DNA of 64,000 bases from assembly GCF_000746025.2 (NCBI RefSeq), contig NZ_CP045798.1:2551001-2615000 (forward strand), given 5' to 3'. Position 1 is the stretch's first letter, and every line of letters begins with the position of its first letter. The notes beneath the pieces were generated by a model, which saw nothing but the letters and a program-made list of their open reading frames with translations, searched no databases and had not been told where the DNA came from. Below are positions 39,890 to 51,221 of the stretch, piece after piece. Source of the stretch: Thermanaerosceptrum fracticalcis (GTDB taxonomy: Bacteria > Bacillota > Peptococcia > DRI-13). The translations under genes and the position numbers were made by a program.

Positions 39890-39925
39890 AATTAAGAGTA
39901 TCCTTATGTGAGGATACTCTTAATT
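39890..39925 (-). terminator. Terminator of the flavin/iron-sulfur module
   Basis: 15-bp perfect stem (AATTAAGAGTATCCT and complement) with a 6-nt loop, just after the stop at 39938; ends TTTTTA on the minus strand. Confidence 0.8.
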
Positions 39926-39937
39926 TGATATGCTGGC

Positions 39938-41218
39938 TTATACTAATTCTTCCTTATAAATATCGGCCAGACCCAGGCGTTTAATTCTGGTTTGGACAGC
40001 TTCCACATTCGTAGTATAGAGCCCTTTTTCCTGCATGCGGGCAAAGTATTTGCCGCCGGCAAAGGTATAACGGTTCCTGCGGCCTTCCGTTGTTTCCAGC
40101 ATTTCATTGGCATAGGCTATTAAATCGCCCACGGCCGTAGAATGGGGCAGTTCCAGTAAAGGCATTCCTAAATAGAGGCGTACACTGTTGTGTCCGGCCA
40201 GACTGCCTGTAGCAATGGCTTCCGTATGACCTACAAAGAGCCCTGCTTTTTCCCCTGCGCAGAGGAGATTTGCCAGCCCCTTCACCTTGAGGGCGTTGTT
40301 ACGGGGAGCCATGGAAAGATAGCGGATAGAGTTGCCTTTCCCGCCCGAGTAGGGGTCGTCAAAGCGGGCAAATTCCAAACCGGGTATCCTTCTCAGTTTC
40401 ACAATGGGATAGTAAGAGGTCATCAGCTTGGCATAACCGGTATCCAATAAGACAATATTCTCGGCGAATTCTTTGAGGGCGTACTGCTGGCACACCTTCA
40501 TGTTCAATTTATCCATATTGACATCTTCCGGCGGCACGGGTAAGACGACTACACCGGTTTTATCCAGTGTTTCTATAATCTCTTTACTTAGAGATTCTTT
40601 TACCAGTTTGCAGGAACCGCTGTAGGCTCCGTAAGAAGCGTCCCCGCGCTCCCCCAGGCGGTCCTCAACTCCGGCCCGCTGGCTGATGCTGACCCGGGGT
40701 CCGAAAGAAGGACATCTTAAGATACACATGGAACAGCCGTTGCCGTAGCGCAGGCAGTTGCCCATGGGCCCTGTAGAACCTGTGGTTTCAATGAACACAT
40801 CTCCGTCAATCCAGGTCTCGTCAGACAAAAGAACACTTTTTATCCTGTTCCCTTCGCATTTGACGTCAATGGCCCTTGCTTCAAACCTGATGTTAACCCC
40901 CATGTCCTTTAGTAAATTTCGTACCATTGGCTCAATTTTCGTAACATCGTAGAGGGTCGCGTGTTTATGACCGGGGAACTCAATATTCCTGTGTCTCGCC
41001 GCCTGATCAGTCAGGTCAATTAATTCTTCCGCCCCCATGGCCTTGATTTCTTCGGCTGCAGTAAATCTGCCGTTGTTGCGCATGATTCCTCCCACATTGC
41101 CTAGACCCAGGAGTAAATCAGTCCTTTCCAAGAGAGTTACCTCTGCCCCGGCCTTTCGTGCTGTTACAGCCGCTGCACAACCTGCCCAACCCCCACCGAT
41201 GATGATTATTTTTGCCAC
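39938..41218 (-). CDS. FAD-dependent oxidoreductase with a Cys cluster
   Basis: 426 aa, GidA/FixC-like flavoprotein. N-terminal GGGWAGCAAAVTARKAG binds FAD; LCAGEKAGLFVGHTEAIATGSLAG near residues 325-350 is the second FAD motif. Cys155, 162, 165 and 169 (C-x6-C-x2-C-x3-C, in NCLRYGNGCSMCILRCP) look like ligands for a [4Fe-4S] cluster, which is rare in this fold. It follows the PyrK-like gene after 3 bp, so the two form one operon. Proposed role: substrate-oxidising or -reducing subunit that receives electrons from its partner. No specific family name recognised. Confidence 0.75.
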   Translation of the reverse strand: MAKIIIIGGGWAGCAAAVTARKAGAEVTLLERTDLLLGLGNVGGIMRNNGRFTAAEEIKAMGAEELIDLTDQAARHRNIEFPGHKHATLYDVTKIEPMVRNLLKDMGVNIRFEARAIDVKCEGNRIKSVLLSDETWIDGDVFIETTGSTGPMGNCLRYGNGCSMCILRCPSFGPRVSISQRAGVEDRLGERGDASYGAYSGSCKLVKESLSKEIIETLDKTGVVVLPVPPEDVNMDKLNMKVCQQYALKEFAENIVLLDTGYAKLMTSYYPIVKLRRIPGLEFARFDDPYSGGKGNSIRYLSMAPRNNALKVKGLANLLCAGEKAGLFVGHTEAIATGSLAGHNSVRLYLGMPLLELPHSTAVGDLIAYANEMLETTEGRRNRYTFAGGKYFARMQEKGLYTTNVEAVQTRIKRLGLADIYKEELV

Positions 41219-41221
41219 TGG

Positions 41222-42205
41222 CTACTCCCTCCCTCCAAAGATCTCTACTGGACTTATCTGTGTTTTACATGTTTTTATCCTGCTGCCATCATTTAACCTG
41301 GTATGGCAGCTGCCGCACACACCTTCACCACAACAAAATTTGGCATCATTGGAGCAGGTGAAATAAACATCGCTCTTCAGCCCTGCCAGTAACTCACCAA
41401 TACCTTCGTGCAGTTTATCCGACCCCCCGCTATAGATGAGATTAATTCCTTTTTCCACAATATACTGCCTGATTAGCTCCCGGGTTTCTTCGGGAAGAGT
41501 TAAGGTTTTACCGTTGAGGACGGGTTTATAAATAACCTGACAGCCCAGCTCCTTAAAATATTCCTCTGTAAAATTAATACCGGCCCGGCCCTTATCCAGA
41601 ATAACATCTACACTGTTACCTGAAAGGATAAGTTTTCTGGCTACCGGAAGGGCGGGAGCCTGGGCGATTCCCCTGGTAACCAGCAATGCTTTTCCATGGG
41701 AGAGACCTTTTAAATATTTAAGTCCTAATAAACCATTCCAGTAGGGACCTCTAATGAGTATTTCCGTACCTAATTCCTGCAGACTCTTTGTTTTAACCCC
41801 CCTGATCTGGATGGCTATTTCAATAGTCCCTTCTTCTTCATTGGCCCGCATAACAGACATGGGTGTATCAAAGAAGGCAGGGTTTTTTACATCCCTCATG
41901 AAGACATAGGCGCCTGGCTGATTCAATTCCCGGGCTAAAGTCCTGCTTACCTGGATTTTTAAAAGCATGACCGCCTCCATAAGCACCTTTTTTTCAATAA
42001 TGGTGGATAAGGATGTCCTGCGCCCTTCTTTCATCTGGTTACGATTCCAAACATATTCCTGGTAAATGCAGACACCTTTCCAACTGCGGCAGTCGCAAAA
42101 GACCTTTCCCTGCAACTGGGAACACATGATACACTCGCCTGTCTCAGCAAGGTAACAGGGACAATACTCGGATCCTGCATCAATACAGTTTAGAATTTGA
42201 TGCAT
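41222..42205 (-). CDS. PyrK-like FAD/NAD-binding oxidoreductase with extra Cys motifs
   Basis: 327 aa. The central part (residues about 85-290) is the ferredoxin reductase-like fold of PyrK/sulfide dehydrogenase subunits (QPGAYVFMRDV, ALLVTRGIAQAPALPVARKLI, GGSDKLHEGI). The C-terminal FCCGEGVCGSCHTRL ... CK supplies ligands for a [2Fe-2S] cluster as in PyrK. In addition, eight Cys residues lie within the first 46 residues (7, 15, 17, 25, 28, 37, 39, 46), enough for one or two more metal sites. Probably shuttles electrons between NAD(P)H and the flavoprotein encoded 3 bp downstream. AAGGGGG precedes ATG 42205. Confidence 0.75.
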   Translation of the reverse strand: MHQILNCIDAGSEYCPCYLAETGECIMCSQLQGKVFCDCRSWKGVCIYQEYVWNRNQMKEGRRTSLSTIIEKKVLMEAVMLLKIQVSRTLARELNQPGAYVFMRDVKNPAFFDTPMSVMRANEEEGTIEIAIQIRGVKTKSLQELGTEILIRGPYWNGLLGLKYLKGLSHGKALLVTRGIAQAPALPVARKLILSGNSVDVILDKGRAGINFTEEYFKELGCQVIYKPVLNGKTLTLPEETRELIRQYIVEKGINLIYSGGSDKLHEGIGELLAGLKSDVYFTCSNDAKFCCGEGVCGSCHTRLNDGSRIKTCKTQISPVEIFGGRE

Positions 42206-42307
42206 TTTTTTACACCCCCTTTTCCGCTATATTAAATTATTAACAAGCGCCAAAAAGGTTCCAAAGGGACAGCAAATTTTTCCGCGCCCCGTTTTTAATT
42301 TCCAAAA

Positions 42308-42341
42308 TAGAAAAGAGTGCGGTTTTTACCGCACTCTTTTC
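42308..42341 (-). terminator. Terminator of the HAD phosphatase gene
   Basis: AAAAGAGTGCGGT / ACCGCACTCTTTT stem with a 4-nt loop, flanked by T/A runs so it may work in both directions. Confidence 0.8.
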
Positions 42342-43096: not shown

Positions 43097-43987
43097 CTAA
43101 CTGAGTATCATTTTAGCTTCGGCTAAGGCCTTTCTTATTCTTTCCACTTCGGCTTCAGGTAAAGGTAAGAAGGGTTTCTTGGGTACCCCCACATCGATGC
43201 CCACCATAGGCAGGGCCGCATGATAGAAGGGCACAGGGATACCTTCTCCTGTAACTGTCCGCAGCATGTTGGCCTTTTTCTGGAGCGCTACAGCCTTTGC
43301 AAAATTACCGGCTACGCACTCTTGATAAATCTCTTTAATAAAGCGGGGGAAAGCGTTAGACAGTCCGGAAACACAACCGTGGGCTCCACCTACAACGGCG
43401 GGAACCAGGTGGGTCTGGGAACCAATGAGGAACAGGAAGTCGGGCTTGGTTACTTTAGCCATATATTCATAGAACAAGGCAATATCAGCGCTGCTATCCT
43501 TAACACCCTGTAATCCTAAGTCGGCCAATTCAGCCAGTAAGTCACCGGAAATGGAGAAATTACTGTATTTGGGGTTATTGTAAGCTATGACGGGAATTTT
43601 TACGGCATTGATCAGAGCTTTGTAGTGTTCAACAATTACACTCTTAATGTGCTTATAGTAGAAAGGTGTAACGGCAGCTACAGCATCGACTCCGTGGGCT
43701 TCAGCATGCTTAGCCAGCTCAAGAGTGCTGGTGGTGTCAAGACAGCCTACATGTAGAATTACGGGAACTTTCCCTCTGGCTACTTCCATGGTAATTTCGG
43801 CTACTCTTTTTCTTTGCTCCATGGTCATAAGGGGACCGGAACCGTAAGAACCACAGACAAACAGGCCGTCAACCTCTTTAATTAGATACTCAATATAAGC
43901 ACGTAATTTAGCTTCATCAACCTCACCTTCGGGGGTAAAGGGTGTGATCACCGCGGGATAAATACCTGAAAATTTTTTAACATCCAT
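43097..43987 (-). CDS. DapA/NAL-superfamily aldolase
   Basis: 296 aa, one TIM barrel. Schiff-base Lys in GVKDSS (about residue 161), catalytic Tyr in IAYNNP (about 133), GSYGSGPLMT near the N-terminus. True DapA would be next to lysine genes; here the neighbours are an RpiR regulator and a ketodeoxygluconate kinase-like gene, which point to a 2-keto-3-deoxy sugar-acid aldolase that releases pyruvate (inference). Preceded by the palindrome TGAAAT-TTT-ATTTCA. GAGGAGG upstream of ATG 43987. Confidence 0.85.
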   Translation of the reverse strand: MDVKKFSGIYPAVITPFTPEGEVDEAKLRAYIEYLIKEVDGLFVCGSYGSGPLMTMEQRKRVAEITMEVARGKVPVILHVGCLDTTSTLELAKHAEAHGVDAVAAVTPFYYKHIKSVIVEHYKALINAVKIPVIAYNNPKYSNFSISGDLLAELADLGLQGVKDSSADIALFYEYMAKVTKPDFLFLIGSQTHLVPAVVGGAHGCVSGLSNAFPRFIKEIYQECVAGNFAKAVALQKKANMLRTVTGEGIPVPFYHAALPMVGIDVGVPKKPFLPLPEAEVERIRKALAEAKMILS

Positions 43988-44041
43988 GATAAACTCCTCC
44001 TCTTATATTTGTATTTATATTTCATATAATGGCATATACTG

Positions 44042-44056
44042 TGAAATTTTATTTCA
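44042..44056 (-). promoter_or_regulatory. Palindromic operator candidate before the aldolase gene
   Basis: TGAAAT-TTT-ATTTCA, a perfect 15-bp inverted repeat, 55 bp before the aldolase start. A further half-site ATTTCATATAA lies at about 44029-44040. RpiR-family regulators often bind GAAA/TTTC inverted repeats, and the rpiR-like gene is immediately upstream, so autoregulated control of the cluster is plausible. Confidence 0.45.
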
Positions 44057-44077
44057 GGAAGAACAAAAAAGAAGAAA

Positions 44078-44959
44078 TCATTTAACCCTTTTGTCTATTC
44101 CTACCTTCTTGGTTTTCTCCAGACATTTAAGGGAAAGATCATACCTGCGTACAGCAACGGCGGCAAATAAAATGTCCACAACATGCAGTTGGGCGATGCG
44201 GGCCGCTCCCGTCCGAAAGGCCTCATCTTCTGTGGAAGTAAATAGTTTAATATCCGCCAGCTCCGCGATAGGTGTCTTGGCATACTTGGTTATAGCCACA
44301 GTGGTGGCACCTGCATCTTTGGCTAATTTCATCGAATAAAGAATATCTGCAGTTTTGCCCAGAAGACTGATACCTACAGCCACATCACCGTTCTCCAGTA
44401 AAGCCGCAGAGTTGGCCTGCAGGTGCGGATCTACATAGGAAATGGCCGGAATACCGATACGGGCTAAGCGCAGGTGAGCGTCCTGAGCTACCAGACCGGA
44501 AAAACCTACGCCGTAAAATTCTACACGCCTGGCCTTACAAATAGCTGTTACTGCCTTTTCCACTTCCTGCAGGTCTAAGATATCACGGGTATCATTAATA
44601 GCCTGCAGATTGGAGTGAGCAATTTTTGCGGCAATGGTCTGTAAATCATCGGCAGCCTTAATTTGTTCCGGTATAAACTGGGTAGGAACGACTAAATCCT
44701 GGGCCAGAGACATTTTAAATTTCTGATAACCACCATAACCAATAGCCTGGCAAAAGCGAACAATAGTAGCCTCGCTTACTTCTGCTTTTACGGCCAGTTC
44801 CGCCACAGAAAGATGGATAACATCCCGGGGATGCTGCAGGACATGATCCGCTACCCGCTGTTCAGCAGGCCGCAGGCTGGAATAAACTTCGCGAATCCGC
44901 ACCAGGGAACCGCCTAACAGGGTATCATTTTTTTCTTCTCCGCCTTCCAGATAGAACAT
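44078..44959 (-). CDS. RpiR-family transcriptional regulator
   Basis: 293 aa: N-terminal HTH (LSVAELAVKAEVSEATIVRFCQAIGYGGYQKFK) and C-terminal SIS sugar-isomerase domain (about residues 125-260) for a phosphosugar effector. It lies between the kinase-like and aldolase genes, so it probably senses an intermediate of that pathway. AAGGAG precedes ATG 44959. The 15-nt gap from the kinase gene suggests one operon. Confidence 0.9.
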   Translation of the reverse strand: MFYLEGGEEKNDTLLGGSLVRIREVYSSLRPAEQRVADHVLQHPRDVIHLSVAELAVKAEVSEATIVRFCQAIGYGGYQKFKMSLAQDLVVPTQFIPEQIKAADDLQTIAAKIAHSNLQAINDTRDILDLQEVEKAVTAICKARRVEFYGVGFSGLVAQDAHLRLARIGIPAISYVDPHLQANSAALLENGDVAVGISLLGKTADILYSMKLAKDAGATTVAITKYAKTPIAELADIKLFTSTEDEAFRTGAARIAQLHVVDILFAAVAVRRYDLSLKCLEKTKKVGIDKRVK

Positions 44960-44974
44960 CTTTTACTCCTTTTC

Positions 44975-45924
44975 CTAACGATTTACATCTTGTTTGCCCT
45001 GAATAAATCTCTGGGCTTCCTCCAGGGTCGGCATGGCTTCCACATTGCCTTTTACTGTGACAGCTAAAGCGCCCACAGCATTGGCTAAGGTTAAGGATTC
45101 CTTAAAACTCCAGTTCTTAAGCTGCCCCGCCAGAAATCCAGCAGCAAAGGCGTCACCTGCGCCAAAAGGATCAACTACACGCTTAACAGGAAAACCTGGG
45201 GCCACTACTTTTTCCCCTCCCTTAAAGCCTACTGCACCTTCAGGACCCAGCTTAATGACAACCGTATCTGCCCCGAAACTGGAGATTATCTTAAAGATCT
45301 CCTCATCATTAGTAGTATCAAACAAAATCTGGCATTCGTCAATGCCCGGCAAGACGATGTCTGCTAAAACCATCAGCCTCAACAAAGTCTTCTTAGCTTC
45401 ATCTTTAGACCAGAGCTTCAAGCGCAGGTTGGGGTCAAAAGAAACCCTAACACCATTCTTCCTGGCTATTTCCATAGCCTTCTCCACAGTCTCACTACAA
45501 GACGGGCTTAAAGCCGGTGTTATCCCTGTTACATGCAGGTACTTGGCCTGTTTAATATAAGCTTCATCCAGATCTTCTACGGAGAGGAAACTTGCCGCCG
45601 AGCCTTTACGGTAATAAAAGTTTTTACTTTCTCCAACTTCGTTCTGCTGGCGGAAAAAATTCCCGTAGGATTGTAGGGATCCATTTTAACCTGGGAAACA
45701 TCCACTCCTTCGCCCCGGAAAAAATTTAGAATAAACTTACCAAATTCGTCATCACCCAGGCGGCTGATCCACCCAGCCGAATGTCCCAGGCGAACTACAC
45801 CTACAGCCACATTTGTTTCAGCACCGCCGCTGTGACGTTCATAAGTTGAAATATAGCGAAGGGGACCGGTAGTTATACCATCAAAAACTGCCATGGTTTC
45901 GCCCAATGTTACTACTTCTGGCAT
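44975..45924 (-). pseudogene. PfkB-family sugar kinase (2-keto-3-deoxygluconate kinase-like), frameshifted
   Basis: The kinase is split by a single-base deletion. The first frame (45924 to about 45577) has the N-terminal GGAETNVAVGVVRLG motif; the second (from about 45660 to 44975) carries VDPFGAGDAFAAGFLAG, the catalytic Asp and anion hole of PfkB kinases. The shift lies at a run of six T on the coding strand (45654-45659): seven T would restore GIFFRQQNEVGESKNFYYRKGSAASFL. It may be a real mutation, a slippage-controlled gene or a sequencing error. Expected activity: ATP-dependent phosphorylation of ketodeoxygluconate or a similar sugar acid. Confidence 0.8.
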
Positions 45925-45946
45925 CGTATCACCTCCTCATCCTGGT

Positions 45947-46996
45947 CTAGATTTCTTCTTCCACTTTTAATGACTTAGCCAATTTGTTTAGTTCATTTCT
46001 TACTTCCTCATTGAGAGGGATACCTGCTTTCAACCTTTCTACAGAACACTTATACTCAATTTCACCGGGCATAAAGATTTCCACTACTCCCGGAGCCTTA
46101 GGTGAATCTTTTAGTTCGCTGATGAGCTGGTCCATACGCTTTTTGAAAAACTCTACAGGCATAAAATTATCTACTTTGAAAGCACCCAGAAAAATGCCTT
46201 CGTTTAACTTAGAAGTAAAATCTTCAGTCATGGATGGAACATGACCACCAAAAAAGGCACCCGTTAAAACTCCTGCCAATATGTCTACCATAAGAGAAAG
46301 GCCATAACCTTTGGGACCACCTAAGGGCAGGACTGAACCATGTATGGCTTCATTTGGGTCCTCTGTGGGGTTCCCGTTTTTGTCCAGGGCCCATCCTAAA
46401 GGTATCTTTTCTCCTTTTTTCGCTGCCAGAAGGATTTTTCCTCTTGCCACAATACTGGTAGCCATATCAAGAACAACTGGCGGGAAATCACCGGCGGGAA
46501 CCGCTACAGCAATGGGATTCGTGCCTAAAAGTGGCTTTATTCCTCCCCAGGGAGCCATATGGGCGGAAGCATTAGTTAAGCAAATTCCTATCATATCCTC
46601 CCGGACGGCCTGCAAAGCATAATATGCACCAATTCCAATGTGATTGGTGTTATTCACACCAACCAGGGCCTGGCCTTGCGCACGGGCCAGGGCTAAGGCC
46701 TCGTTCATGGCTTTAAAACCGATTACCTGGCCTAATCCGTTGTCTCCATCAATTAAAAGGCTGGTAGGAGTAGCTTTTATAACCCTGGGCCGGGGACAAG
46801 GATTAACTAAACCCAGCTGTATCCTTTTAATATATATGGGAAGCCTGGAAACACCATGAGAAGCAATGCCTCTCAAATCGGCACTAACAAGGTTATCGGC
46901 TACAATTTCAGCATCGGCTTCCGGAACATCTACCTGCCTTAAAAGTGTTATACAAAAACTTTTTAGTTTTTCAGAGCTCAGTTTGCTATCTGCCAC
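45947..46996 (-). CDS. Malate/L-lactate/sulfolactate dehydrogenase family (Ldh_2)
   Basis: 349 aa, NAD(P)-dependent 2-hydroxyacid reductase of the Ldh_2/ComC/YiaK type. Motifs: HGVSRLPIY, GVNNTNHIGIGAYYAL with the active-site His, LGTNPIAVAVP, GGPKGYGLSL. Relatives use malate, lactate, ureidoglycolate, 2,3-diketogulonate or (R)-sulfolactate. GTG 46996 lies 4 bp after the stop of the upstream dehydrogenase gene; the frame extends to TTG 47011 without a ribosome site. Co-transcribed with the other dehydrogenase, suggesting inversion of a hydroxyacid through a ketoacid. Confidence 0.85.
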   Translation of the reverse strand: MADSKLSSEKLKSFCITLLRQVDVPEADAEIVADNLVSADLRGIASHGVSRLPIYIKRIQLGLVNPCPRPRVIKATPTSLLIDGDNGLGQVIGFKAMNEALALARAQGQALVGVNNTNHIGIGAYYALQAVREDMIGICLTNASAHMAPWGGIKPLLGTNPIAVAVPAGDFPPVVLDMATSIVARGKILLAAKKGEKIPLGWALDKNGNPTEDPNEAIHGSVLPLGGPKGYGLSLMVDILAGVLTGAFFGGHVPSMTEDFTSKLNEGIFLGAFKVDNFMPVEFFKKRMDQLISELKDSPKAPGVVEIFMPGEIEYKCSVERLKAGIPLNEEVRNELNKLAKSLKVEEEI

Positions 46997-47000
46997 TGTA

Positions 47001-47906
47001 TCACATCCCAAAATGTTTTTTAATTTCCCCGGCTGCCATAGCGGCCATAGTCACTTGCGTAGCCTGAGTCATGGCGGCAATATGCGGTGTAAGAATTAAA
47101 TTGTCTGGGATTTGCTGTTCCTTCAAATAATGGGGAGGTTCCACAGAAAATGTATCCAGAGCGGCTCCTGCAATTTCCTTATTTCTTATTAAATCCAAAA
47201 CAGCATTTTCGTCTACGATACCACCTCTGGCTGTATTAATCAGGACTGCATTCTTTTTCATTAATGACAGCTTGTTCCTGTCCAATAGTCCTTTTGTTTC
47301 GGCAGTCAGCGGACAATGGACGGAAACCACATCACTTTGTAAAAGCAAATCAGCAAGGCCCACCTGGGAGACAAAGGGATGGGTAAGCTTTTTAAAGGGT
47401 TCGTAAACCACAATCTTCATACCGAATACATGGGCCATTTCCGCCACTTTGGTGCCAATCCTGCCAAATCCTATTAAGCCCAAAGTTTGCCCGCGCAGTT
47501 CATCTCCCATAAGCAATTCCCTCTGCCAGAAGCCGGTAGTTACCAGTTTGTGATGAGCTTCCATGATACGCCGTTTTAATACAAGCATCAGGGCTATGGT
47601 AAACTCGGCTACAGCATTGGAATTGGCATCATGGGTGGTAGTCAATTTAATACCTCTGCTTTCCAGATAAGGCAGGTCAAGATCATCCAGCCCCACACCA
47701 TGCCTGGCAATAATCTGTATCTTAGGTCCTAACTCCAGGAGCTTAGCAGGCAGCTTACCGATTTTATGAAGAATGGCATCCGCTGTTGGTATTACTTGAG
47801 CCAGTTCCTCAAATGAAGGATTTTCCACTACCGTTACCCGGGCAAACTCTTTTAAGATGTCCAATCCCTCGTGGGAGATCTTTCCTGTAACCAGTACATG
47901 AATCAT
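47001..47906 (-). CDS. D-isomer-specific 2-hydroxyacid dehydrogenase (SerA-like)
   Basis: 301 aa with one catalytic and one nucleotide domain. GFGRIGTKVAEMAHVFG is the NAD-binding motif; the catalytic set is Arg in NTARGG, Glu in DTFSVEPP and His in TPHIAAMTQ. No ACT or regulatory domain, so it is catabolic or reductive rather than biosynthetic SerA. SlcC-like sulfolactate dehydrogenases share this size, but substrate is not readable. Start ATG 47906 with AGGGG upstream. It is 4 bp from the Ldh_2 gene. Confidence 0.85.
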   Translation of the reverse strand: MIHVLVTGKISHEGLDILKEFARVTVVENPSFEELAQVIPTADAILHKIGKLPAKLLELGPKIQIIARHGVGLDDLDLPYLESRGIKLTTTHDANSNAVAEFTIALMLVLKRRIMEAHHKLVTTGFWQRELLMGDELRGQTLGLIGFGRIGTKVAEMAHVFGMKIVVYEPFKKLTHPFVSQVGLADLLLQSDVVSVHCPLTAETKGLLDRNKLSLMKKNAVLINTARGGIVDENAVLDLIRNKEIAGAALDTFSVEPPHYLKEQQIPDNLILTPHIAAMTQATQVTMAAMAAGEIKKHFGM

Positions 47907-47956
47907 CTTTACCCCTCATTTAGAAGTTGGGGGGAATCCCCCCCAACCTTTCAATT

Positions 47957-48967
47957 TTATTTCTTGGCCAGGCCAGCTTCCTCGATGAGTTTAGTATAGC
48001 TTTCATATTCTTTGGCTAAATATTCCTTATATTTTGCACTATCCATATAGATAATGTTGGAAACCTGGTCTTTCATGTAATTGATGTACTTCTCGTTTTC
48101 CATGGCTTTTTTCAGGTGGTCATGGAGAACTTTAACTACTTCGGCAGGAGTACCTTTGGGAGCCAGGTATCCCCTTAAGGAAAGGATTACGACGTTATAA
48201 CCCATTTCGTTAAAAGTAGGGACATCGGGGAAGTCTTTAAGTCTTTCAGGTGTCATAGTCCCTAGCATCCTAAATTCTCCGGATTTGATTTGGGCAATAG
48301 CCTCATTAGGAGGGATAACAATGGCGTCAACATGGCCACCCAGGAGACTTACGGAAGCACTTGCACCACCGGTAGTGCTGGGCACAATATTAAACAGGAC
48401 ACCGGCTTCCTTTTCCAGCTTGATAACGCCTACATGCCACAAACCACCGGGAGTTCCTGTACCGACATTAAGTTTCTTAGGATTCTTTTTGGCATAATCC
48501 AATAATTCTTTAGCAGTTTTATAAGGAGAGTCAGCTTTGACCATCAGGGCAGGTGCATCGAAGTTCACGGCAATAATGGGTTCAAAATCTTGATAAGTCA
48601 ACTGAGAGTTACCAGTAGCCTTAATAGTGGAAATATTGGAGGTTGAAAGTACGATGTTATAGCCATCAGGTTTGGCGTTAGCCGTTTCCGTATAACCTAT
48701 CGCCCCGGCACCACCCGTCTTATTGACACATATTATGGGCTGACCAAAATCTTTTTCCATTATACCTGCCAGCATGCGGGCAACCTGGTCAGTTCCTCCT
48801 CCTGCTCCAAAGGGAATTACCATTGTTAACGGTTTTTCCGGATACTTACCTTTTTTACTTTGTTCCGTTTTGTTATTTGCATTACAACCTACTATAACCA
48901 GACTGAGCATCAATAAAGCCGAAATTAATACAACCCACATTTTTTTGACCTTTGGCATATTCTTCAT
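47957..48967 (-). CDS. Tripartite tricarboxylate transporter binding protein (TctC/Bug)
   Basis: 336 aa lipoprotein: signal segment with VIVGC lipobox near residue 28, then the Bug fold (YPEKPLTMVIPFGAGGGTDQVARMLA, VNKTGGAGAIGYTETANAKPDGY). Captures a carboxylate outside the cell for TctA/TctB. The ATG codon at 48967 has GGAGG only 3 nt away; ATG 48958 is an alternative. Encoded 55 bp after tctA. Confidence 0.9.
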   Translation of the reverse strand: MKNMPKVKKMWVVLISALLMLSLVIVGCNANNKTEQSKKGKYPEKPLTMVIPFGAGGGTDQVARMLAGIMEKDFGQPIICVNKTGGAGAIGYTETANAKPDGYNIVLSTSNISTIKATGNSQLTYQDFEPIIAVNFDAPALMVKADSPYKTAKELLDYAKKNPKKLNVGTGTPGGLWHVGVIKLEKEAGVLFNIVPSTTGGASASVSLLGGHVDAIVIPPNEAIAQIKSGEFRMLGTMTPERLKDFPDVPTFNEMGYNVVILSLRGYLAPKGTPAEVVKVLHDHLKKAMENEKYINYMKDQVSNIIYMDSAKYKEYLAKEYESYTKLIEEAGLAKK

Positions 48968-49022
48968 TCATTCTCCTCCTCAAAACTTAATTTTTTGCCA
49001 AAGTTTACTTGGTTTGTAAAAC

Positions 49023-50519
49023 CTATTCCTGTGTCACCACCTCCTGTGATCTCGCCTGCCACCTTTTTTTCAGTTTTGGCCAGAGGAGCATAGCGATGGT
49101 GATTACCCAAAAGAAAGCGGCTATAGGTCTAAGGAAAAGTACTGAAACTTGTCCCTGGGCCATAATTAACGCATTACGCAGATTGGTTTCGGCCATGGGG
49201 CCAAGAACAATACCTAAAACCATGGGTGCCATTGGAACATCTAAATTATCTAAGCTATAGCCAATAATACCGAAGAGTATCATTACACCAATGTCAAAAT
49301 AGTTGTTGGAGACAGCGTAAGATCCCACAATGCAGAGAAGCAGTATTAAGGGGATAAGTATGTTGTTAGGCAGACTAATGGCGCGGGCAAAAAGTCTGGC
49401 CCCGACTAAGCCAACAATCAACATGAAAATGTTAGCTAATGCTGTACCCAGATAAATAGCGTAAATTATTTCCGGGTTATTCCTAAATAACATCGGACCT
49501 GGTTGGAGACTATGGATCATAAAAGCGCCAATTAAGATAGCCGTGATAGCATCCCCCGGGACACCCAGGGTTAAGAGCGGCATTAGGGCTCCACCCACAG
49601 TAGCATTATTGGCTGCTTCCGGTGCTGCTACTCCTTCCGGAATTCCTTCTCCGAATTTTTCGGGGTGCTGGGAAGTTTGCTTGGCATCATTATAAGCCGC
49701 AAAAGAGGCGATGGTCCCTCCTGCGCCCGGTAAAGCACCAATAAAAGTTCCGATGAGTGAGGAACGCACAATAACTTTGGATAATCTTTTTAGAAGACTG
49801 AAGCTGGGTACCACATTTTTTATTTCTTGCCTTACCTCTACGTGATTTTCCACATTCCGCAATTGCTGGAGAATTTCAGAAAGACCGAAAAGTCCTATCA
49901 TTAAAGGAACAAAATTAAGACCTGTCTGTAAATTCATTTCATTAAAGGTAAACCGCTGGATGCCGGTTATGGGGTCCATCCCTATTGCGGAAAGGAGAAT
50001 ACCTAAAGCTGCGGCAATAAGTCCTTTTAACAAGGACTTGCCAGAAACGTTGGCAATAATACTGAGTCCAAATATAGCCAGGGCAAAGTATTCAGGTGCA
50101 CTGAATTTTAAAGCAAAACGGGAAATAATTGGCGCTCCTAAAACCAGGAAAACTACACTAATCATCCCCCCCAGGAAGGAGGCAGTAGTGGAGATGCCAA
50201 TGGCTTGTCCTGCCAAACCTTGTTTGGCCATGGGGTAACCATCCCTGGCCGTCATGATAGCCGAGGGGGTACCCGGAATGTGTAAAAGGATAGCGGATAT
50301 AGAACCACCATATACACCCCCTACATATATGCCTAACAGGACCATAATGGCCTCAATAGCAGACATACCAAAGGTAAATGAAGTTAGTATAGCTACTGCC
50401 ATTGTCGCGGTTAGTCCGGGAATGGCTCCAATGGCTATACCACCTGCCACACCAGCCAGGAGAAGCAGCAGTATTTCAGGATTTATAACCATCTGTATGG
50501 CGCTAAGCACAGGGTCCAT
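49023..50519 (-). CDS. tctA: Tripartite tricarboxylate transporter, large membrane subunit TctA
   Basis: 498 aa with about twelve membrane segments. Conserved GAIPGLTATMAVAILTSFTFGM and GGVYGGSISAILLHIPGTPSAIMTARDGYPMAKQG near the N-terminus, and the repeat GALPGAGGTIASFAAYNDAKQTS in the second half. Sodium- or proton-coupled import of a tricarboxylate-like anion. GGAGG before ATG 50519. Middle gene of tctB-tctA-tctC. Confidence 0.93.
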   Translation of the reverse strand: MDPVLSAIQMVINPEILLLLLAGVAGGIAIGAIPGLTATMAVAILTSFTFGMSAIEAIMVLLGIYVGGVYGGSISAILLHIPGTPSAIMTARDGYPMAKQGLAGQAIGISTTASFLGGMISVVFLVLGAPIISRFALKFSAPEYFALAIFGLSIIANVSGKSLLKGLIAAALGILLSAIGMDPITGIQRFTFNEMNLQTGLNFVPLMIGLFGLSEILQQLRNVENHVEVRQEIKNVVPSFSLLKRLSKVIVRSSLIGTFIGALPGAGGTIASFAAYNDAKQTSQHPEKFGEGIPEGVAAPEAANNATVGGALMPLLTLGVPGDAITAILIGAFMIHSLQPGPMLFRNNPEIIYAIYLGTALANIFMLIVGLVGARLFARAISLPNNILIPLILLLCIVGSYAVSNNYFDIGVMILFGIIGYSLDNLDVPMAPMVLGIVLGPMAETNLRNALIMAQGQVSVLFLRPIAAFFWVITIAMLLWPKLKKRWQARSQEVVTQE

Positions 50520-50531
50520 AAACGATCCTCC

Positions 50532-50981
50532 TTACAAAAATTTTAGTGGCAGCGGTACTTTTAAACTGACAATGAAAATATAGTAGATCGCCAACATAGC
50601 TGCGGCAGATATTCCTACAATTTTGAACCAATTATTAAGCCTGAATATTATCATTAGAACCCCTAAAAAAATAACTGTTCCCAACTCGTACCCTATCAAG
50701 GGCAAGAGATATCCATAAAGAGCCATGATGATAAGAACTAAACCAATGCGGATGATTCCTGAATCTTTTAAGGAAATAACTATTTTTTCCGTGCTGATCC
50801 GGTAAGATCTATAGATTAAAATGCCTGCAGATATCGTTAGAAACAAGGCCAAAAGTTTAGGGACAAATCCTGCATCAACTACTTGCAAGTCATTGGACAG
50901 TTCAGGAAATTTTGCGGTTTCATAAAAGGTAACAGCACTGACAATTAAAAGAATTAATGCCAACAAGCGATCCTTGTTCAT
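50532..50981 (-). CDS. tctB: Tripartite tricarboxylate transporter, small membrane subunit TctB
   Basis: 149 aa with four membrane segments; start MNKDRLLALILLIVSAVTFYETAKFP is typical. ATG 50981 follows AAGGGGG; the frame extends to 51014 without a site. First gene of the transporter operon; its upstream region is a 121-bp tandem duplication. Confidence 0.85.
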   Translation of the reverse strand: MNKDRLLALILLIVSAVTFYETAKFPELSNDLQVVDAGFVPKLLALFLTISAGILIYRSYRISTEKIVISLKDSGIIRIGLVLIIMALYGYLLPLIGYELGTVIFLGVLMIIFRLNNWFKIVGISAAAMLAIYYIFIVSLKVPLPLKFL

Positions 50982-50998
50982 ATTAAACCCCCTTTTTC

Positions 50999-51221
50999 CG
51001 TAACATATTTTCATAAATACGCTGTATTTATGTAGTGTTTTTTCATATGGTGGCTATTTCGCTAATATTTTAAAAATTCCTCCCTTAAGCATAAGGTTTT
51101 TTATATTTACCCCCCTTATCGTAATATATTTTCACAAATCCGTTGTTTTTATGTAGTAATTTTTCATATGGTAGCTATTTCGCTAATATTTTAAAAATTC
51201 CTCCCTTGAACATAAGATTTT
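50999..51221. repeat. 121-bp tandem duplication upstream of tctB
   Basis: Two copies of a sequence that starts CGTAACATATTTTC/CGTAATATATTTTC (50999 and 51120) and runs through CATATGGTGGCTATTTCGC and TTAAAAATTCCTCCCTTNA. About 85-90% identical by eye. Each copy contains TGAAAA-type half-sites (minus strand ATGAAAA) resembling the RpiR-type palindrome. Covers most of the 368-bp gap between the DUF441 gene and tctB, so it probably holds the operon promoter(s). Confidence 0.75.

Follow-up and report, generated by a model that had tools for sequence, protein, structure and literature searches.

A flavin/iron-sulfur gene pair of Thermanaerosceptrum fracticalcis as a candidate non-homologous dipicolinate synthase of clostridia without DpaAB

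The stretch of DNA analysed here (the window; 64,000 nucleotides of contig NZ_CP045798.1 of Thermanaerosceptrum fracticalcis, assembly GCF_000746025.2, positions 2,551,001 to 2,615,000) carries on its minus strand two adjacent genes, P and G, which we propose to act in late sporulation and which may encode a dipicolinate synthase different from the known enzyme DpaAB (SpoVFA/SpoVFB). P (41222..42205) comes first and encodes an electron-transfer subunit of the PyrK/NfnA fold (NCBIfam NF004470, 327 amino acids); it is followed by G (39938..41218, GTG start), encoding a flavin adenine dinucleotide (FAD) protein of the MnmG/GidA fold with a four-Cys motif (426 amino acids). Both open reading frames (ORFs) are intact and separated by 3 bp, as stated in the original prediction made from the letters of this DNA. 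A terminator-like inverted repeat lies behind the gene upstream of P (42311..42340), and another, the probable end of the transcript, follows G (39891..39924; both read by eye); being flanked by such repeats on both sides, P-G probably forms its own transcription unit. A match to a sigma-K-type promoter, GGAACC-N15-AATAATTTA, is seen 27 nucleotides before the start codon of P (42233..42262, minus strand).

P is a member of NF004470 (PRK05802), scoring 415.9 bits at a curated cut-off of 313. This family is uncharacterised and named for its resemblance to PyrK, and the name PRK05802 was not found in the open-licence literature. The PyrK models themselves score far lower (the best, NF000799, gives 46.3 bits at a cut-off of 314), placing P outside PyrK by score. 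An AlphaFold model built from 51 P sequences (mean predicted local distance difference test score, pLDDT, 84.8) is closest to PyrK of dihydroorotate dehydrogenase B (5ksw_B; Z 23.8, root-mean-square deviation 2.6 over 245 aligned residues), and the matches to PyrK and the small subunits of Nfn range from Z 23.8 to 21.6. Identity across homologues is 28-66% (with a same-genus genome at 95-98% set aside), and the cysteines are strongly conserved. The [2Fe-2S]-type motif C292-x4-C297-x2-C300-x12-C313 (41267..41332, minus strand) is invariant in two sets of homologues (51/51 and 41/41). Residues 1-46 hold exactly eight Cys (7, 15, 17, 25, 28, 37, 39, 46), and in this segment (C7 to C46, 42068..42187, minus strand; pLDDT below 50 for residues 26-45) seven are invariant in the 51 homologues and C7 is present in 50; in the second set, C7 and C15 occur in 40 and C37 in 38 of 41. 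The eight residues are likely to bind one or two iron-sulfur clusters or a metal site, and the PyrK-like protein with its two groups of cysteines is real, as first described.

In PyrK, the Arg before the PxS motif serves flavin binding and the GG pair forms the nicotinamide adenine dinucleotide (NAD) motif. Neither signature is kept in P: positions 112-114, directly before P115, hold no Arg in 51/51 homologues (the PyrK counterpart in the alignment with 1ep3 reads RRPIS), and at 178 the NAD motif has Arg or Lys in place of its second Gly in 49/51. With both signatures changed in every or almost every homologue, binding of flavin and NAD by P is uncertain and should not be assumed, and the two flavins originally suggested are uncertain as well.

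G matches Pfam GIDA with an E-value of 2.5e-34, and no NCBIfam model exceeds its cut-off among the 25 matches listed of 113. Its motif C155-x6-C162-x2-C165-x3-C169 (40712..40756, minus strand), noticed at the outset, is invariant in 57/57 and 44/44 homologues of two sets and is a probable [4Fe-4S] site. C243 is likewise invariant in both sets, C203 is found in 56/57 and 36/44, and nine Arg and His residues (R47, R51, H76, H84, R115, R175, R276, R299, and H331) are invariant in 44/44, at an overall identity of 48-77% (same-genus genome, 95-98%, again set aside). The flavin/iron-sulfur pair indeed lacks a named function, as P belongs to an uncharacterised family and no characterised family was matched.

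The closest solved folds of the G model (44 sequences, mean pLDDT 88.4) are GidA (3cp8_A; Z 32.5, root-mean-square deviation 3.3 over 381 aligned residues) and TrmFO (Z 25.9), which allows for a reading in which G modifies RNA in the manner of MnmG or TrmFO and P supplies the electrons; the gene rluB, next after the pair in many genomes, would fit. However, G shares with these enzymes the predicted fold over the FAD core, and differs in having the four-Cys motif and in lacking the C-terminal part of MnmG (of the 611 residues of the GidA chain, only 1-454 are covered by the 426-residue G), and its scores are far below the family cut-offs (29.7 bits versus 524.85 for TIGR00136, MnmG/GidA; 38.2 versus 428.65 for TIGR00137, TrmFO). 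Considering also the sporulation-type promoter element, we regard such a role as extremely improbable, and RNA modification was rejected on the family scores.

Nfn-type bifurcating complexes contain a large subunit of the GltD type with two [4Fe-4S] clusters. P resembles PyrK and the small subunit of NfnI/Nfn in predicted fold and in the [2Fe-2S] cysteines, but differs from them in the additional eight-Cys N-terminus, in the altered flavin (Arg) and NAD (second Gly) signatures, and in its partner, which is best matched by MnmG and TrmFO folds and has a single four-Cys motif, unlike the Nfn large subunit. The initial suggestion of an NAD(P)H-dependent reductase or a bifurcating-type complex was therefore abandoned, as neither the MnmG-fold partner nor the altered motifs of P fit it.

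The pair recurs far beyond the window genome, as the original prediction requires. In a sample of 398 genomes spread evenly across the phylum, 38 have an NF004470 match of at least 195 bits (P-positive genomes; 27 are above the curated cut-off), and the next match reaches 120 bits, in a DpaA-positive genome (G012) with no adjoining G in the stretch examined; this gap was seen before the threshold was set. In this sample, scoring covered at most five candidates per genome for NF004470 and for DpaA, and at most three for SpoIVA, while all candidates were scored for DpaB and SpoVV, and for SpoIVA and DpaA in the titled genomes described below. G adjoins P in 38/38 P-positive genomes, directly behind it in all, at 52-77% identity to the G of the window in the first 30 P loci (the window's own aside). 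In turn, among 80 titled loci found by G, P lies at most 400 bp upstream in 59 and farther upstream in L143, L153, L156, and L161, and no P was seen in the remaining 17 within the stretches examined, some of which end early. In many clostridia, dacB and rluB flank the pair, and scpA, scpB, and the spore gene ytfJ/gerW are close by (names read from sequences).

In this sample, P is confined to spore formers, as judged by SpoIVA. SpoIVA is found in 336/398 genomes of the sample, including 38/38 P-positive ones, and in 30/30 titled genomes chosen for their G homologue, and P is present in 0/62 genomes without SpoIVA. Among the 336, 34 have P only, 280 DpaA only, four both, and 18 neither (Fisher p 5e-29 for exclusion, uncorrected for kinship). 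DpaB was not found in 35/38 P-positive genomes, being present in 10/10 DpaA-positive controls; the window genome has no match to TIGR02853 or TIGR02852 (the searches for DpaA and DpaB), and DpaA was found in 0/30 of the titled G genomes, which include C. tyrobutyricum, C. carboxidivorans, C. cadaveris, and Thermobrachium celere. One of the four genomes with P and DpaA (G368) has a weak DpaA match (6e-38) and no DpaB, and four of the 18 genomes with neither P nor DpaA contain DpaB, so that these are probably ordinary DpaAB genomes with DpaA missed or missing.

SpoVV (YlbJ) is described as the dipicolinate transporter exporting from the mother cell (PMC5629000). It is found in 38/38 P-positive genomes (34 above the curated cut-off, with the window genome among the four below), in 10/10 DpaA-positive controls, and in 0/14 controls without SpoIVA. 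With SpoVV retained and DpaAB missing, P-positive organisms seem to move dipicolinate and yet lack the known synthase. On a SpoIVA tree of 120 rows, where G271 was set as DpaA-positive for its DpaB and G368 on its weak match, the state with P and without DpaA requires at least six changes on well-supported branches, in about five clades. As a side observation, Anaerovorax sp. IOR16 (G453, locus L156) has its SpoIVA in two pieces separated by about 120 kb; an element may have interrupted this gene too.

An initial scan of 60 upstream regions with consensus sequences as we took them gave no sigma-E promoters (2.6 expected), four sigma-A promoters (8.6 expected), and two strict sigma-K promoters (0.6 expected), the whole test being near or below chance. 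A sigma-K-like pattern was spotted by eye in the upstream regions and then fitted, with its TR ending fixed after inspection of dpaA upstream regions, and the counts in the 91 P upstream regions (related species, only identical sequences removed) are not independent of this fitting. The pattern AC[AC]-N15-16-[AC]ATANNNTR occurs in 66/91 of these (shuffles 1.4, maximum 7), and the strict form AAC[AC]-N12-16-AATANN[CT]TA in 36/91 (shuffles 0.32, maximum 3). In B. subtilis, sigma-K promoters are reported to have a five-base -35 and a ten-base -10 element separated by 14-16 bases (PMC517825).

Fairer counts come from free spacing, a deep-branch set of P, and control genes. When any spacing between 6 and 27 was allowed, the strict form clustered at 15 (17 cases) and 16 (19 cases); spacings of 9-14 and 17-20 gave none, and no other spacing gave more than two. 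The canonical form AC-N16/17-CATANNNTR, which we take to be the sigma-K consensus, is present in 7/8 deep-branch P upstream regions. The pattern AC[AC]-N15-16-[AC]ATANNNTR is carried by 19/20 dpaA upstream regions of DpaA-bearing genomes from the same sample (20 of 292, mostly high-scoring), in agreement with the sigma-K dependence of dpaAB described for C. difficile (PMC3789822), and by 3/130 upstream regions of rluB, scpA, scpB, dacB, and gerW (shuffles 2.6; canonical form 0/130). Across the window genome, the strict pattern gives three sites versus four in the reversed control, which makes it unsuitable for genome-wide searches. By sequence match, P-G has a putative promoter of the sigma-K type, like dpaA, and would presumably be transcribed with sigma-K.

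The window genome itself contains two further G paralogues (62% and 59% identical) with no P nearby. One could imagine P-G to be a vegetative amino-acid or amine dehydrogenase, similar to the paralogues found by RidA, a pyridoxal phosphate (PLP) enzyme, and a B12 aminomutase, with the link to sporulation reflecting lineage only. In L068, L069, L077, L152, and L158, the pair ends a PLP/B12-aminomutase/KamB cluster, and G is located some kb before an apparent lysine-fermentation cluster (by eye) in L133, with P, and in L155, with no P in the stretch examined. Nevertheless, in most of the 80 titled loci the pair has no PLP cluster, and its own conserved sporulation-type promoter element and its absence from genomes without SpoIVA would hardly be expected of such an enzyme, which we thus consider improbable.

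A different kind of evidence is provided by interruptions of G, which is broken near residues 11, 84, 264, and 334-348 in viral contigs and some titled genomes. The recombinases beside the breaks have a serine-recombinase Resolvase domain and a zinc ribbon in 8/8 cases tested. Among the 16 pieces in the comparison, 15 resemble the P-paired G more than the PLP-cluster type (59 and 4 references, respectively, with 18 others left out); the exception, L169, is an unbroken gene. In L143, approximately the first 14 codons of G follow P and the remainder is found 4.2 kb further, behind the recombinase, and the break points share six bases in a frame-restoring phase (by eye). The two parts of G were found together in a single locus in just two cases, L143 and one break of L164. 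In L111 and L136, G is shortened at its start or left as a remnant, with no recombinase seen beside it. As a repeated landing site at several conserved codons, G was observed in L163-L168, L170-L172, L143, and L148, with two breaks in one gene in L163-L166, L168, and L170.

The arrangement agrees with that of skin, vfbin, gin, and yin, described as serine-recombinase elements within sporulation genes (PMC10747680, PMC5025042), in that a serine recombinase sits within the gene and both gene parts are kept; vfbin is itself reported in the dipicolinate synthase gene spoVFB (PMC10747680). The elements in G differ by using several sites of one gene across different clostridia. Their skin-type layout suggests candidate excision elements, and the insertions imply that G is dispensable in growth, as expected of a mother-cell gene.

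Thus, the presence of SpoIVA in all P-positive genomes, the conserved promoter, and the splitting of G by elements point to late sporulation, and some role of P-G in sporulation is highly probable. The near-exclusion of P and DpaA with SpoVV kept leads us to propose, with moderate confidence, that P-G is a non-homologous dipicolinate synthase taking the place of DpaAB where clostridia lack the latter. Promoter and distribution also favour an oxidative sporulation step, that is, conversion of dihydrodipicolinate to dipicolinate, rather than a reductase.

Under this proposal, P-G would be a two-subunit mother-cell enzyme of late sporulation. The product of DapA would be shunted from lysine synthesis and, as dihydrodipicolinate, converted to the aromatic dipicolinate by a two-electron oxidation on the FAD of G, where invariant Arg and His residues could bind both carboxylates. 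Electrons would pass from FAD to the Cys cluster of G and on to P, with its [2Fe-2S] and N-terminal clusters, with ferredoxin, an electron-transfer flavoprotein (Etf), or NAD(P)+ as the final acceptor, and the skin-like elements would have to leave G for the spore to mature. In this scheme, the cofactors, the assembly of P and G into a complex, the use of sigma-K, and the substrate, reaction direction, and electron acceptor are all inferred.

Several observations weigh against this proposal. Orsburn in 2010 reportedly assigned the dipicolinate synthase of C. perfringens to EtfA. The reports on this protein describe the activity in vitro and in vivo (PMC5376575, PMC4959285), and the same role has been inferred for other cluster I clostridia, worded as "very likely" (PMC5104732) and "possible" (PMC6362236). 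P, DpaA, and DpaB occur together in G247, G317, and G362. In thirteen genomes that carry SpoIVA and SpoVV, P, DpaA, and DpaB are all missing (a count leaving out G169, with a weak SpoIVA match and no SpoVV); eight of them contain a G homologue, seven in an apparent PLP/aminomutase cluster and G138 elsewhere. Independent pairs on the 120-row tree gave 3.9 opposing, 1.2 agreeing, and 3.9 showing no difference (median p 0.375), and the tests on trees of both 80 and 120 rows were not significant, at low power. The canonical form AC-N16/17-CATANNNTR is found in only 12/91 P upstream regions (shuffles 0.6), and in most of the 91 the -10 element starts with A, versus C in the sigma-K consensus as we take it. 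The -35 sequence GTAACA also fits the SpoIIID box KRTAACARK given for C. difficile (PMC5025042), and such a box could overlap the -35 element in some genomes. The altered flavin and NAD motifs of P belong here as well. Genomes having all three proteins were expected to lack the promoter: this holds for L024 of G247 and L031 of G317, the latter with an in-frame stop in G, and, contrary to expectation, L021 of G362 matches the relaxed pattern.

Many of these points could be accommodated if P-G were a mother-cell redox enzyme with another substrate (related to cofactors, the coat, nutrient recycling, or electron disposal), with EtfA making dipicolinate and the exclusion of DpaAB being an accident of clades. 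The work on C. perfringens, the few independent events with non-significant pairs, the 13 genomes with no candidate, and the G paralogues in amino-acid clusters, which show that the family is not tied to one substrate, are all consistent with it; but the exclusion extends to DpaA as well as DpaB and is seen in about five separate clades, and the promoter element is that of dpaA, so we treat this explanation as serious, if unlikely. Within the dipicolinate synthase proposal, EtfA would be needed indirectly, e.g., as the electron partner of P-G, and Etf as the acceptor would reconcile P-G with the etfA mutant. For the joint statement, that P-G makes dipicolinic acid where DpaAB is missing, is transcribed in the mother cell with sigma-K, and offers in G a favoured landing site for skin-like elements, the balance tips only slightly in favour.

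Compared with known systems, P-G resembles DpaAB in having two genes, the same kind of promoter element, and genomes with SpoIVA and SpoVV, but no sequence relation was found (TIGR02853 and TIGR02852 are not among the 19 families matched by P, nor among the 25 listed of 113 for G, the weakest listed having an E-value of 4.7e-4), P-G shows an FAD fold and iron-sulfur features, and it occurs mostly where DpaAB is missing. With EtfA of C. perfringens, it shares being a flavoprotein proposed for the same step in the absence of DpaAB (PMC5376575, PMC4959285); EtfA is an electron-transfer flavoprotein subunit described as also serving growth (PMC5104732, PMC6362236), in contrast to P-G, a separate pair with its own sporulation-type element.

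Dipicolinate confers heat resistance on spores. The genes dpaAB are reported missing in C. acetobutylicum, C. botulinum, C. kluyveri, and C. perfringens (PMC3533761), and this gap has so far been explained by one study of EtfA, then extended to other species. If our proposal is true, a dedicated, sporulation-timed enzyme settles the source of dipicolinate for many clostridia, P-G is a spore-specific enzyme unlike DpaAB, and G joins the short list of genes interrupted by developmentally excised elements. No account of P-G as a sporulation or dipicolinate enzyme was found in print within the open-licence literature.

G paralogues also occur in PLP clusters (L069:185-8925, L077:1800-9225, L158:1680-9072, L162:3154-11588, and L064:6588-14038), which comprise DUF6917 and/or RidA, a SelA-like PLP enzyme, the G paralogue, a B12-binding aminomutase-like protein, and a KamB-type reactivase, in most cases with an FCD regulator and a small protein as well. 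In L069, the SelA-like enzyme has no Pfam match, the reactivase is above the cut-off of NF052386, and a 162-amino-acid protein (L069:3699-4187) with a Cys-rich N-terminus, adjoining the G paralogue, matches only about the first 140 positions of the P family. The content suggests an uncharacterised amino-acid cluster with a B12-dependent aminomutase pathway of a new kind. A second context for the G family is seen in the window genome (L063:6949-15567), where a dapA-family gene above the dapA cut-off is grouped with RidA, a G paralogue, and DUF6917; the neighbours include FixABCX-like genes (identified by eye) as well as a radical SAM/PDZ protein.

Upstream of P-G in the window, a gene of the DapA family falls short of the dapA cut-off; its highest score is to N-acetylneuraminate lyase, likewise below the cut-off for that enzyme. 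Because of these scores and of the adjoining sugar-kinase pieces, it was not used as a hint to the substrate of P-G. The region 43097-51014 resembles a set for sugar-acid catabolism, with the DapA/N-acetylneuraminate-lyase-family aldolase, an RpiR-type regulator, kinase pieces, two dehydrogenases, and a tripartite transporter (the latter by eye). The sugar kinase, similar to KDG kinase, is present as two ORFs (44975-45924), which may reflect a frameshift, decay to a pseudogene, or an error in sequencing: the ORF 45577-45924 spans only the first 91 of 305 positions of the sugar-kinase model, and the remainder seemingly lies at 44975-45487 (by eye).

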